A stretch of DNA of 10,701 bases from Candidatus Nealsonbacteria bacterium RIFCSPHIGHO2_02_FULL_43_13 (GTDB taxonomy: Bacteria; Patescibacteriota; Minisyncoccia; Minisyncoccales; MHMH01), in assembly GCA_001819295.1 (NCBI GenBank), contig MHMD01000028.1:16235-26935 (forward strand). The letters are read 5' to 3'. Shown in pieces: positions 5,963 through 9,507 of this stretch. How positions within the stretch are numbered: position 1 is the stretch's first letter; each line of letters begins with the position of its first letter. The notes beneath the pieces are model-generated. The model saw only the letters and a list, made by a program, of their open reading frames with translations. It had not been told where the DNA came from and made no database searches. Position numbers and translations under genes: made by a program.

Positions 5963-5990
5963 ATTATACTCGGATCCAAAGATATGTCAA
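5963..5990 (-). promoter_or_regulatory. rpoB promoter, distal, near consensus
   Basis: Minus-strand TTGACA (5990-5985) and TATAAT (5968-5963) are both perfect consensus hexamers separated by 16 bp. The predicted start is near 5956, giving a leader of about 115 nt before the rpoB ATG that contains the terminator-like hairpin. The same hexamers with the same 16-bp spacing are used at 8354-8381 for the structured RNA. Confidence 0.8.
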
Positions 5991-6005: not shown

Positions 6006-6047
6006 GAGGTCGGACCTCCCCCGTAATTTTGGGGGAGGTCCGACCTC
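6006..6047. repeat. GAGGTC double palindrome, copy 1
   Basis: Left arm GAGGTCGGACCTCCCCC (6006-6022) pairs perfectly with the right arm (6031-6047) over an 8-nt loop. Each arm contains the near-palindrome GAGGTC-x-GACCTC, so the element has fourfold symmetry. It starts 9 nt after the stop of the ligase/TPR gene and has no T-tract on either side. It shares flanks CGTGAGGTC and GACCTCCTAA with copy 2 at 8605-8646. Confidence 0.9.
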
Positions 6048-6056
6048 CTAAAATAG

Positions 6057-8285
6057 TTATCGGAGCTGGTCGATCTTTTTTTGCACGTCCTGGTTGGCCG
6101 GATTCAATTCCAAAACTTTTTGGAACTCTTCGATAGCTAAAGATTTCTTGCCTTGAGCTGCGTAAGCCACTCCCAGAGAATAATGGGCGTTGGAATGGTC
6201 AGGCACCAAAATCACCACTCTTTTGAATTGATTAATCGCCTCGGTAATCTGATTGTTGTTGAAATAAAGCCGGCCCAGCTGGAAAAGAATTTCTGAGCTT
6301 AAAGGAAAATCTACGGCTAACTCTTCCATTTCTTTTAAAGCATTCGCCTTATCTCCCTCCTTTTCAAAAAGCAAAGCTTGTTGAATTAAGGCATCAGTAT
6401 AATCAGCTTTGACTGCAATGGCTTTCGCAAATTCCTCTCGAGCCTTGCCAATTTCATCAGAGGCAATGTAAAGTTTGCCCAACTCGGTATAAGCTACGGG
6501 GTTCTGCGGATCAAGCGCAATGGCCTCCTGGAAAGACTTTATCCCCCACTCATTGGCGCCCGTAGCCACGGCTTTAATTTCCCGATAAATCATGCCTAGG
6601 GTTTCCCACATGGCAACTTGCTTAGGAGCAAGTTCGGTCGCCACTCTTGCCTGATTGATGGCGGTGGCCACCAATAACTGAATGCGAGAAGCATCCTGTT
6701 CGTTTAAAACATCGTTCAAATAGGCTCTCGCTAAAACCGCCCGGTACTGGGGAGAGCTCGGATTGAGTCTGACTGCTTTTTCCAACAACACCGTTCTTTC
6801 GTTGCTTAAATTTAACTTCTGGGCATTGGCATAATTCACATCGGCTAAATAGGTCTTAACGTTGAAAAAGTAAAGCGCTAAAACTCCCACGCCCACTAAA
6901 ATAACAATCGTCGAAAACACCAAACTTAATTCGGGAAAATTCTTGAAAGAGATTACTTTTTCTTTAATCGGTTTTTGCCAAGCAATAACCGATAAACCCA
7001 AGATTAACCAAAACAAAAACGCTAAGGTCGTGTTTTGATAATAAACGAACTGCCCCGCGACGAGTGCGGAAAAAACCATCAATAAAAGCAGGGCTTGCGA
7101 CTTTTGCCGCAAGAAAAAGTAGCTGGCCATAAAGAAGATGGCGATTAAAGCCAAATAGCTTAAAATTCCCAAAAAGCCTAAAGTTCCTAAGATTTCAGCC
7201 AAATGAACCCCTGATCGGTCAAATCTAATTTGCCATAGCCAGCTTGAGTTGATTGACAACGGTTTTTCTTTGGCAAAGTCGTAATTAAAAGTGCCGATGC
7301 CCGAGCCCAAAAAACTGCTTTTAACGCTGTCCGTAGCTCCCCCGAAACCTATTTGCCAAGAAGTTTTTTGGTCTAAAACCTGCTCTTTCATTAAATTCGC
7401 CACGTTTGATCCTTCGCCGAAAATCAACGCCTGGGGCTGCGAAACAATACAGGCCGCCGCCACGATAATTAAAAATATCGGGATCAAAAGACGATTAACA
7501 TTATCCCGAAACACTTTTTTCCATAAACTTAAACCCACGAACAAGGCAAAGGTTATTAAGACGATCAGCCAGGCCGGCGTAAAACCAATGATGATTAACA
7601 AACCCAAAATGGCTGCCAAAAGCAAGTAAGTAATCCTGCCGGTTTTGGCCGATGTTAATATTTTGCCTACCAAGAAAACCATGCTTATTGCCAAAAAGAT
7701 ACTTAATCCTTCAAGCGAAGCAGCCGTCGGATTAAAAATCCGCAACGCCATCATCTTGGGCAAGAAAAGAAGACCAGCCAGTTTCGCAAAAACACCGAAG
7801 ATAGCCAAATAAGAAAACAGAACCGCAACAAAGACTGACCAGGAAAGCGTTTTCAAAAGCCCGCTAATCGTGATGTTTGGAGGTTCGACCTCCTTGGGAG
7901 GTCGAACCTCCCCAGATCGGACGTTGTTGGTAATCAAGAAATAAAACACGCCCAAAGACAAAAGCCCGATTAACCCGTTAGAAAACCGCCCGTAAAAACC
8001 GTACAAGCTTGATGTTTTATCTACCGAAAAGATGGCCGATAAGATGGCGACTCCCATAAAAGCCAGAACGAAGATATCCAAGGGCGAGCGCTCAAATCTT
8101 ATTTCCTTATCAACTACAACCATCTTGGCCAGCCACGCGAAAAACGCCAAAGAAACCAAAAAGAGCAGTAAAAACTGCTTATTATATTCAAACGCCTCAA
8201 AACTGAAAGGCAAGAAGAATAGCGGCGTTAAAAACACGAGTAAATATAGACTTATCTTGATGATGCGGTCGAAAAAGTTTTGCAT
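6057..8285 (-). CDS. polytopic O-antigen-ligase-like membrane protein with C-terminal TPR repeats
   Basis: This 742-residue inner-membrane protein has an N-terminal half rich in hydrophobic helices (roughly 9-30, 36-54, 70-88, 103-120, 145-172, 187-207, 218-252, 265-282, 361-392, 398-436 and 454-474). A soluble C-terminal half from about 485 carries tetratricopeptide repeats, for example EWGIKSFQEAIALDPQNPVA and HYSLGVAYAAQGKKSLAIEE. The layout and the large loop between helices (about 285-360) resemble the WaaL/Wzy/PglL O-antigen ligase/polymerase superfamily fused to TPRs, which suggests transfer or polymerisation of lipid-linked glycans, with the TPRs binding a partner. The substrate cannot be read from sequence. 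An inverted repeat encodes residues 125-136 in a loop between helices. The start MQNFFDRIIK begins just before the first helix; no Shine-Dalgarno is visible, but an extended -10 lies about 30 nt upstream. Confidence is high for the gene and moderate for the function. Confidence 0.85.
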   Translation of the reverse strand: MQNFFDRIIKISLYLLVFLTPLFFLPFSFEAFEYNKQFLLLFLVSLAFFAWLAKMVVVDKEIRFERSPLDIFVLAFMGVAILSAIFSVDKTSSLYGFYGRFSNGLIGLLSLGVFYFLITNNVRSGEVRPPKEVEPPNITISGLLKTLSWSVFVAVLFSYLAIFGVFAKLAGLLFLPKMMALRIFNPTAASLEGLSIFLAISMVFLVGKILTSAKTGRITYLLLAAILGLLIIIGFTPAWLIVLITFALFVGLSLWKKVFRDNVNRLLIPIFLIIVAAACIVSQPQALIFGEGSNVANLMKEQVLDQKTSWQIGFGGATDSVKSSFLGSGIGTFNYDFAKEKPLSINSSWLWQIRFDRSGVHLAEILGTLGFLGILSYLALIAIFFMASYFFLRQKSQALLLLMVFSALVAGQFVYYQNTTLAFLFWLILGLSVIAWQKPIKEKVISFKNFPELSLVFSTIVILVGVGVLALYFFNVKTYLADVNYANAQKLNLSNERTVLLEKAVRLNPSSPQYRAVLARAYLNDVLNEQDASRIQLLVATAINQARVATELAPKQVAMWETLGMIYREIKAVATGANEWGIKSFQEAIALDPQNPVAYTELGKLYIASDEIGKAREEFAKAIAVKADYTDALIQQALLFEKEGDKANALKEMEELAVDFPLSSEILFQLGRLYFNNNQITEAINQFKRVVILVPDHSNAHYSLGVAYAAQGKKSLAIEEFQKVLELNPANQDVQKKIDQLR
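7879..7911. repeat. GAGGTT/GAGGTC double palindrome, copy 3, inside a coding sequence
   Basis: GGAGGTTCGACCTCC (7879-7893) and GGAGGTCGAACCTCC (7897-7911) are perfect reverse complements with a 3-nt loop. The core GAGGTTCGACCTC is a variant of the core in the copies at 6006 and 8605. This copy lies in frame inside the ligase/TPR gene and encodes about residues 125-136 (GEVRPPKEVEPP on the minus strand), a hydrophilic proline-rich loop between two membrane helices. Confidence 0.88.
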
Positions 8286-8353: not shown

Positions 8354-8381
8354 TTGACATCACCCCTTGATTTGCTATAAT
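8354..8381 (+). promoter_or_regulatory. near-consensus promoter of the structured RNA
   Basis: TTGACA at 8354-8359 and TATAAT at 8376-8381 match both sigma70 consensus hexamers, with a 16-bp spacer. Predicted start is A8388 or G8389. No protein gene lies downstream on this strand before the terminator at 8560-8586, so the promoter most likely drives the RNA itself. Confidence 0.8.
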
Positions 8382-8433
8382 TGCGTTAGACACTGATAAG
8401 TTCGTATACCACGGACTAAATCGGGTACCACGG

Positions 8434-8457
8434 AAAGGTCCTCAAAAGGGGCCTTTT
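8434..8457 (+). terminator. internal hairpin with short T-run inside the structured RNA
   Basis: AAAGGTCC (8434-8441) pairs with GGGCCTTT (8449-8456, one GU) across a 7-nt loop, followed by T-rich TTCTGTT. It could be an early terminator making a short RNA of about 70 nt, or simply the apical stem of the longer RNA. The weak T-tract favours the latter. Confidence 0.35.
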
Positions 8458-8458
8458 C

Positions 8459-8467
8459 TGTTATAAT
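8459..8467 (+). promoter_or_regulatory. possible internal extended -10 promoter
   Basis: TG-T-TATAAT is a perfect extended -10 sequence directly after the internal hairpin; no -35 is visible. A start near 8474 would begin at the strand CGTGGACTCGG, which pairs over 11 bp with 8545-8555, giving a compact RNA of about 110 nt including the terminator. It may be fortuitous in an A/T-rich loop. Confidence 0.3.
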
Positions 8468-8559
8468 AAATCCGTGGACTCGGGCCTGTGGTGTATAAAG
8501 TAGCATATCAGTGTTGGTACCTGATGAAGCGAGTGCAAATCTCGCCGGGTCCACGTCAG

Positions 8560-8586
8560 AAAGTCTTGGCAATCCCAGGACTTTTT
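8560..8586 (+). terminator. intrinsic terminator of the structured RNA
   Basis: AAAGTCTTGG (8560-8569) pairs with CCAGGACTTT (8575-8584) over ten base pairs (one GU) around a 5-nt loop, ending in a T-run 8582-8586. It lies 5 nt after the last paired segment of the RNA. Confidence 0.8.
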
Positions 8587-8604
8587 GATTTCCCGCAATA
8601 TCGT

Positions 8605-8646
8605 GAGGTCCGACCTCCCTCAAAATTACGGGGGAGGTCGGACCTC
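8605..8646. repeat. GAGGTC double palindrome, copy 2
   Basis: GAGGTCCGACCTCCC (8605-8619) pairs perfectly with 8632-8646. Outer flanks (CGTGAGGTC and GACCTCCTAA) match copy 1 at 6006-6047 in direct orientation. The loop (TCAAAATTAC) is the reverse complement of the loop in copy 1, and the central base of both arms is swapped between C and G. It lies 10 nt beyond the stop codon of relic B, as copy 1 lies 9 nt beyond the stop of the ligase/TPR gene. Confidence 0.9.
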
Positions 8647-8656
8647 CTAATATCCG

Positions 8657-8790: not shown

Positions 8791-9507
8791 CTATTCGAGG
8801 GTGAAAGAACTAATTTCGTCAAATTTTCTGTCTAATAACACGCTTTTTACGAACTTTTGATAATCGCTCGGGCTAGAAAAAAACTCTCCCAGCAGCCCCT
8901 TTTCAATAATAATTGAATTTCTTTTATTCAAATACTCCTGTTGCGTACTCCATTGGTATTCTTCGGCAAATTGCATTACTTTTTCTATATTTTTTATGCC
9001 ATTTTCTTTCAAATTGGGCTCAACCAATTCTCCTGGATTTAAGACATTAATGTAGACGAGAAGGTATTGAAGATATTTTTCGTTATCAATTAAAGCCGCT
9101 TTGAATGTTCCCTGGTATAAACTTCCCACCCTCTTATATTTATTGTTGAAATACTTTGTATAGCCAACGCCTAACTTATGCATGAAACAACTAATTCCGC
9201 CTTCTTTGATTTCTTCTATCAACAGATGAAAATGATTCGGCATCAAGCAATCGACTAAAATTCTGACCAAGGGTTTTCGTTCCCGATTATCTTTTTTAAA
9301 AAAATCTCTTAAAACTCCGAAAGTTACCCCTCCTCGGGTTTTTTCCAATTGCCAAAGCAGGTTTGCGGTTGCCTTTTCATCGTTGAACATAAACAAACCC
9401 TGAAGAAATCTCCATCGGTCATTATCATTCTTAAAAATATCCCTCTTTTCCACTCCCCGATTATAAATATGGTAAAAATTTCCTTTGTGAAACTGAATTT
9501 TTCTCAT
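8791..9507 (-). CDS. REP-associated / IS200-like Y1 (HUH) transposase
   Basis: This 238-residue protein belongs to the Y1 transposase superfamily, REP-associated (RAYT/TnpA-REP) branch. These single-strand DNA endonucleases bind hairpins and attack with a tyrosine. The N-terminus KGNFYHIYNRGVEKRDIF is typical. The metal-binding HUH motif is H92-F93-H94 within LMPNHFHLLIEE, and the catalytic tyrosine is probably Y116 (or Y119) in GYTKYFNNKY, followed by the family block RVGSLYQGTFKAALI. Further on, YLLVYINVLNP corresponds to the usual YIHLNP segment, and the tail FAEEYQWSTQQEYL matches the family. The frame is intact with all key residues, so the enzyme may be active. The start ATG 9505-9507 gives the canonical N-terminus; no Shine-Dalgarno precedes it (AAACAAAAAAG). 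Flanking inverted palindromes are its likely substrates. Confidence 0.9.
   Translation of the reverse strand: MRKIQFHKGNFYHIYNRGVEKRDIFKNDNDRWRFLQGLFMFNDEKATANLLWQLEKTRGGVTFGVLRDFFKKDNRERKPLVRILVDCLMPNHFHLLIEEIKEGGISCFMHKLGVGYTKYFNNKYKRVGSLYQGTFKAALIDNEKYLQYLLVYINVLNPGELVEPNLKENGIKNIEKVMQFAEEYQWSTQQEYLNKRNSIIIEKGLLGEFFSSPSDYQKFVKSVLLDRKFDEISSFTLE

Follow-up and report, generated by a model that had tools for sequence, protein, structure and literature searches.

The stretch at 8354–8586 of the window reads as a locus of about 240 bases with two RNA genes on the same (plus) strand, P1-leader-T1 (8354–8458) and P2-tRNA-like RNA-T2 (8462–8586), and we consider it probable that this two-gene, protein-free locus provides a tRNA(Ala)-like RNA under antisense control, with an addiction-like purpose as the leading reading. 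The window, i.e. the whole stretch of DNA that was analyzed (10,701 nucleotides), is part of contig 28 of an assembly of 524 kb in 32 contigs. The element lies between a membrane/TPR gene (6057–8285) and a Y1-type transposase gene (8791–9507), both on the minus strand and both checked with Pfam.

The first promoter, P1, was found by promoter scan and script at 8354–8381 (+) as TTGACA-16-TATAAT, in agreement with the earlier note, which had described a perfect-hexamer promoter with a 16-bp spacer. That note had also put its quality level with that of the rpoB promoter, and indeed the window contains just two promoters with 12 of 12 matches, P1 and one at 5990–5963 on the minus strand, upstream of ORF 5840–2700, which we take by eye to be rpoB. 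P1 is followed by the putative antisense leader RNA (8388–8461, +, 74 nt between its modelled ends), in which the segments A′ (8391–8400, +), B′ (8404–8417, +) and C′ (8420–8430, +) precede T1, an internal intrinsic-terminator-like hairpin with a U-tract (8432–8458, +; located by script, 13 pairs in RNAalifold). The second promoter, P2, is an extended −10 promoter TGTTATAAT (8459–8467, +, with the −10 box at 8462–8467) assigned from its conserved offset, 6 nt 5′ of O (8474–8481, +), the presumable 5′ end of the P2 RNA. The tRNA(Ala)-like body follows at 8482–8553 (+), and T2, a terminator-like hairpin recognized from sequence and by script, at 8560–8586 (+). Among the 68 distinct copies of the element described below, the script located P1 in 60 (with a 16-nt spacer in 40 of the 60), T1 in 64 and T2 in 54. 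The P2 core TAnnnT stands at a fixed offset before O in 51 of the 68 (next best offset, 14/68), so that read-through from P1 is possible in some copies. Neither T1 nor T2 was listed in a consensus terminator scan of the window; the 3′ terminator of the earlier note is present as a hairpin plus a U-run ending at 8586, but its 10-bp stem, claimed as perfect, contains one G-U pair. The locus was rightly placed on the strand opposite to the genes, as the long ORFs of the window are all on the other strand. It was also said to have no reading frame, which is true of the plus strand (no ORF of at least 60 aa over 8354–8586), whereas a mechanical 82-aa ORF on the minus strand overlaps it.

Relatives were collected by BLASTN, as had been proposed, and with covariance models, and showed strong covariation. 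In a BLASTN search against 100 related genomes, 12 matched at E 0.01, the own genome included, and six loci in four other genomes were judged to be homologues; eight low-scoring loci of the 15 BLASTN matches (L038–L044, L046) were rejected, five containing tRNAs called by ARAGORN and three being taken as promoter-like. A covariance model of P2 to O′ built on 7 sequences (R1) gave 31 matches of at least 78 bits in 23 of the 247 genomes of the order, all others being below 58 bits; from this lower group just two matches were fetched, G205:C17 (57.7 bits) and G068:C9 (52.5 bits), which are an ordinary tRNA-Ala and tRNA-Phe, respectively, and stand outside all counts. The same model matched 33 of 383 genomes of the class sample at E 1e-12 or better and 4 of 379 of the phylum sample at 1e-11, the order, class and phylum samples overlapping. 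In all, 70 copies were collected, of which 68 are distinct; they come from 53 genomes of the window's phylum, are patchily distributed and number no more than three in any genome. G368b and G285, being identical copies, were left out of the 68-copy counts and kept in the 70-copy free-search scoring. When 84,980 species genomes were scanned for an exact pattern of the element, 28 stretches were hit, 27 of them titled as Patescibacteria groups (we take Parcubacteria group, Paceibacterota, Nealson-, Staskawicz-, Nomurabacteria etc. in the titles to be Patescibacteria) and one just as 'bacterium'. The exact pattern was absent from viral contigs, and phage cargo was dropped as a candidate on this evidence, which is weak since the pattern is strict. 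Two copies have an unusual arrangement: G368 (L185) has two identical modules about 1 kb apart, each beside a copy of the same neighbouring gene, which is either a tandem duplication or an assembly artefact, and in G105 (L093) about 70 bp with a small palindrome are inserted between T1 and P2, both halves being still recognizable.

The body of the P2 RNA matches the Rfam tRNA family (RF00005) in Infernal at 8482–8553 with 40.6 bits against a gathering threshold of 29. The window copy has the acceptor GGGCCTG/CGGGTCC with G3:U70 and A73, a D-arm, the anticodon arm ATCAG-TGTTGGTAC-CTGAT and the T-arm GCGAG-TGCAAAT-CTCGC with G55. G3:U70 is the alanine identity mark of tRNA; it is kept in 65 of 67 distinct rows, A:U standing in the remaining two, and the three host tRNA-Ala examined have the same GGG...UCC-A acceptor. 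In these 67 rows, 96.7% of the cells of the cloverleaf pair, compared to 32–55% in slid controls, and 194 cells were changed on both sides versus 60.4 in shuffles; the 67-row alignment was fitted to the structure, and a structure-blind MAFFT alignment of 7 sequences gave 99.2% paired. The contacts between D- and T-loop covary as well. At 18–55 (fixed columns), G18 accompanies U55 in 6/6 copies, and copies with G55 have A18 in 61/62 and C18 in one. At 19–56, U56 occurs in only two copies, which are also the only two with A19; of the 66 copies with C56, 62 have G19 in the column and the other four have a D-loop one base longer with the G adjacent. G19-C56 is described in an extract of PMC4810234 as the exposed elbow pair of tRNA. 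The comparison of the copies indicates that the L-shaped tRNA fold of the P2 RNA is conserved by compensatory change.

The anticodon loop TGTTGGTAC (8512–8520, +) is 9 nt long in 68/68 copies, and C′ lies opposite its last 7 nt. The complete motif nnUURRYAn occurs in 52/68; U stands at position 3 in 68/68 and a purine at position 5 in 67/68. A loop of this length does not fit decoding. tRNAs usually carry a purine at position 37, where the element would have a pyrimidine if a 7-nt loop is assumed, and an unusual decoding tRNA was dropped as a candidate on these two grounds. ARAGORN called no tRNA in the window, and of the six first homologues it called one, as tRNA-Ser. In some host tRNAs (e.g. 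L002, L041, L046) the T-loop is UGCAAAU, with G55, and the D-loop has AG instead of GG, which looks like an exchange at the 18-55 elbow contact. L002 also has an extra tRNA-Pro(CGG) at 1500–1573 (G000 contig 13) with the A18/G55 elbow, which scores nearest to the element among the ten own tRNAs compared and is a possible source of its tRNA body.

The strand O (GUGGACUC) can pair with O′ (GGGTCCAC, 8547–8554, +), which overlaps the acceptor 3′ strand, and can thereby displace the true acceptor 5′ strand. At least 7 of the 8 O:O′ pairs are formed in 59 of 68 copies, and the mean fixed-helix energies are −22.1 kcal/mol for the O form and −21.7 kcal/mol for the cloverleaf. As the two are nearly isoenergetic, the P2 RNA looks balanced between two states, and by comparison of the copies both of these predicted competing folds are conserved by compensatory change.

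Each of the three leader segments is complementary to a part of the tRNA-like RNA: A′ to the D-arm 3′ strand, the anticodon 5′ arm and loop bases 1–2, B′ to the acceptor 5′ strand and the 5′ part of the D-arm, and C′ to the UURRYAC side of the anticodon loop and the anticodon 3′ arm. The complementarity is specific to the own partner; C:C′ is paired at 93.4% of positions (762/816; mean 75.0% and maximum 77.6% in 200 leader swaps), B:B′ at 83.6% (863/1032; swap maximum 80.3%) and A:A′ at 77.9% (636/816; swap maximum 72.9%). A second method gave the same picture (cognate versus non-cognate scores and maxima in 10,000 permutations: C, 11.94, 7.10 and 7.95; B, 11.07, 9.34 and 10.01; A, 8.78, 6.51 and 7.18). 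In a free search among the 70 copies, the cognate was best or tied in 58 for C, 20 for A and 15 for B, relatives having the A and B sequences in common. Between copies of the same genome, non-cognate C scores averaged 7.7 and cognate ones 12.3 over 36 ordered pairs, some non-cognate scores being as high as 11.5; such copies are not always orthogonal (cross-scores of 11.0–11.5 for G128a/c). According to the script the segments have the order A′-B′-C′ in 56 of 68 copies, which makes the leader usually a circular permutation of a plain antisense. When 60 leaders were folded with RNAalifold in isolation from the tRNA-like RNA, an A′:C′ stem, with two-sided changes in 5/5 pairs, and the T1 hairpin were recovered. 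RNAcofold gave a modest cognate gain (−4.4 versus −0.7 kcal/mol; cognate best in 13/60 rows), the pseudoknotted complex being beyond this tool. The swaps and permutations indicate that cognate leader complementarity is kept by compensatory change.

A leader-only model from 60 leaders (R2) gave 71 distinct matches (rows: 32 in the order, 46 in the class and 3 in the phylum samples, with 10 duplicates), most of which are members of its training set; the new ones were G105, G103, G203, G007 and the partnerless leaders, and two more were the identical copies G368b and G285. For the 68 tRNA-like copies, P1 and T1 lie upstream in 60, and R2 places the leader upstream in five more (G105, G103, G203, G261, G190a). 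In two copies the antisense is elsewhere. That of G761 converges on its partner from the opposite strand under a promoter of its own, TTGACA-17-TATTCT; its C′ pairs 12/12 with the partner's C (rank 1 of 68, score 13.1; next five copies, 12.0), B reaches 11/15 and the best A match falls outside the expected place, so that C alone is clear. In G526 the antisense is downstream on the same strand in the plain order C′-A′-B′, with an alignment score of 27 compared to at most 16 in 2000 letter shuffles and 19 in other copies. Neither arrangement allows the antisense to be a 5′ leader of the RNA that it targets, which speaks for two RNAs acting in trans, and the comparison suggests that an antisense segment need not be encoded together with its partner.

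Eight of the 70 determinable leaders have no adjacent cognate tRNA-like gene (G169, G409, G267b, G343, G382b, G100x, G411x, G761:C10), the leader of G007 being cut by a contig end and outside this count. The G382b leader is followed by an ordinary tRNA-Leu, that of G100x is degenerate, and that of G411x stands in tandem in front of a complete module with which it shows no complementarity (score 4.8; cognate median 12.1). After the G761:C10 leader, a T-arm/acceptor remnant alone was read by eye. In the opposite direction there is a single case, the tRNA-like gene G125b (1/68), for which a search for an antisense partner returned nothing convincing (best score 16, with no null made). Its cloverleaf has 2 of 17 pairs broken, which proves nothing, as 5 of 65 copies with a leader are equally damaged or worse. 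In the leader's place, upstream of 2487 of L105, this copy has a segment with an inverted repeat of about 20 bp (GGTGTCAACTCTGAATTTTT), perhaps an insertion. The asymmetry of 8 leaders to 1 tRNA-like gene would be in the direction expected of antitoxin and toxin, on small counts.

Regarding the surroundings, several copies lie within core operons, for example between the genes for EF-G and EF-Tu (G128a) or for S10 and L3 (G190b), or next to L4 (G445a), S7 (G125b) and ATP synthase genes (G076, G337). In 48 of 64 copies the downstream neighbour gene runs on the opposite strand, and in 26 of these 48 it lies at most 80 nt from O′, for which reason T2 may serve both. No recurring neighbour family was found within 4.5 kb beyond 9 of 70 copies; ten neighbour proteins, two of them the window's own neighbours, were checked with Pfam and the rest by BLASTP clustering and by eye. 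The window also has REP-like palindromes of the GGAGGTCGGACCTCC type in three pairs (6007–6048, 7879–7911 and 8606–8647), one of them within the membrane/TPR ORF 6057–8285, and a long inverted repeat of the CACAGGTGTCACCTGTG family at 2625–2676, in the spacer that separates the ORFs taken to be rpoB and rpoC, for which Rfam gave sub-threshold matches to microRNA models only.

From this comparison we infer activity of both promoters, a binding pathway, inactivation of the tRNA-like RNA through pairing, its alanylation and toxicity, and the mobility and purpose of the locus, as follows. P1 would drive a leader RNA of about 75 nt ending at T1, and P2 the tRNA(Ala)-like RNA, starting at O (GUGGAC..) and ending at T2. 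The leader would act in trans as an antisense RNA, making first contact through its single-stranded GURYYAA tract, between the A′:C′ stem and T1, with the U-turn-like loop UURRYAC. After loop contact, A′, B′ and C′ would open the anticodon arm and then hold the D-arm and the acceptor 5′ strand, and the acceptor 3′ strand, left free by the leader, would be captured by O, such that the tRNA-like fold is prevented. Without leader, the P2 RNA could take the L shape of a tRNA carrying the alanine identity pair. The most likely purpose would be of a toxin-antitoxin or addiction-like kind, in which the tRNA-like RNA is the effector and the leader its antidote. A more specific version, which we put forward tentatively and at somewhat less than even confidence, is an RNA-only toxin-antitoxin (addiction) system that spreads among Patescibacteria. 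Here an alanyl-tRNA mimic would serve as the toxin and be unfolded by the antitoxin, an antisense RNA of circularly permuted order, and the loop would have diversified so that copies need their own antidotes.

The RNA might instead be a tRNA(Ala) kept for a non-decoding use, for example to supply alanine to a cell-wall or tailing enzyme or to assist in the manner of tmRNA; the leader would then be an ordinary negative regulator. The retention of G3:U70, A73 and the elbow contacts, the acceptor type shared with the three host tRNA-Ala and the 9-nt loop agree with this, but the patchy occurrence (23/247 in the order, 33/383 in the class sample) and the lack of a neighbour family beyond 9/70 copies do not, and the partnerless leaders are hard to explain by it; we regard it as unlikely. 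As to tmRNA itself, which carries an alanine-type tRNA-like domain as the element does, RF00023 was not matched in the window at E values up to 5, a few copies gave weak sub-threshold matches to it as ordinary tRNAs do, and all ten element-bearing genomes tested have their own separate tmRNA; with tmRNA lacking in the window and present elsewhere in the genomes, this candidate was dropped.

If the roles were reversed, the leader would be a working small RNA and the tRNA-like RNA its decoy or sponge, which would suit the leaders that exist alone and the fuller consensus of P1. A decoy, however, has no need for G3:U70, the elbow contacts or the O/O′ alternative, making this reading improbable. 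A cis attenuator of the T-box kind, in which the leader decides on T1 read-through into the tRNA-like gene, is very improbable. T-box leaders pair with an anticodon loop and have a terminator after, and in the element too a leader RNA would pair with an anticodon loop and is followed by a putative terminator, T1 standing between leader and tRNA-like gene in 64/68 copies by script and P2 being weak in some. The element's leader differs in its predicted pairing with its own neighbour over the entire anticodon arm, and in G761 and G526 it is not upstream of its partner. Moreover, for 5 of the 7 partnerless leaders examined in this respect, the longest open frame further downstream is read from the other strand (same strand, 2/7), and Rfam matched no T-box in the window at E values up to 5.

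The earlier note had described nested complementarity in a single transcription unit for one structured RNA of about 200 nt, with a long hairpin interrupted by a bubble. The complementarity is strong (8388–8590: MFE −89.6 kcal/mol versus −53.1, sd 4.0, for dinucleotide shuffles; z −9.06, 0/200 as low), and the MFE structure of the whole stretch is indeed a single long hairpin plus the T-arm, as a 6S-like RNA with a bubble would have it. One RNA is nevertheless not the best reading, because of the internal T1, the second −10 box in P2 and the above-threshold Rfam tRNA match, which had been overlooked. The halves are separable, the long hairpin being a pairing between two RNAs, and Rfam matched no 6S RNA in the window at E values up to 5; 6S RNA was dropped as a candidate, as was the T-box, and we give the single RNA very little weight. 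What stands of that description is a conserved, strongly covarying locus that is unassigned as a whole. Its T-arm-like 3′ hairpin is a genuine tRNA T-arm belonging to a whole cloverleaf, its possible pseudoknot corresponds to the pairing of leader and anticodon loop, and the RNA said to match no known family has a significant match to RF00005 without being an ordinary tRNA. Decayed tRNA or repeat debris without function, suggested by the weak tRNA score, the silence of ARAGORN and the nearby REP-like palindromes and Y1 transposase, has next to no probability, as over 60–68 copies the cloverleaf, the elbow, the leader and its complementarity to the tRNA-like RNA all show compensatory changes that contradict it.

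Read as an antisense-controlled tRNA-like RNA, the element shares with tRNA-Ala (RF00005) the acceptor with G3:U70 and A73, the T-arm, the D-arm, the elbow contacts and a score above gathering, and differs from it by the 9-nt loop without a usable anticodon, the competing strand O and the paired antisense gene. We know of no described antisense RNA that has a tRNA-shaped RNA as its target, and none was found among the best-ranked matches in open-licence PMC full text. If the proposed toxicity is right, the element would resemble type VIII toxin-antitoxin systems (RNA toxin and RNA antitoxin) in being an RNA-only pair that touches tRNA and translation. The example CreTA has, in an extract of PMC8501985, an RNA toxin, CreT, that sequesters tRNA by means of a mini-ORF, whereas the RNA of the element would itself be tRNA-shaped and be controlled by direct antisense pairing. 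In type I systems, as proposed for the element, an antisense RNA neutralizes its partner RNA and initially touches it at a loop that has a U-turn motif, YUNR being the motif that features in type I antitoxin pairing in the extract of PMC8464778; unlike these, the element has no toxin peptide or ORF, and its target is a tRNA-like RNA.

ARAGORN, the gene finder used, misses the element in the window and calls one homologue as an odd tRNA. If our reading is right, this small object of about 240 bp and two RNAs would offer a testable bistability (O:O′ versus acceptor) together with antisense pairing, a tRNA body would be recruitable as an effector, and a large bacterial group known mostly from genomes would have a new RNA-only control or selfish system.
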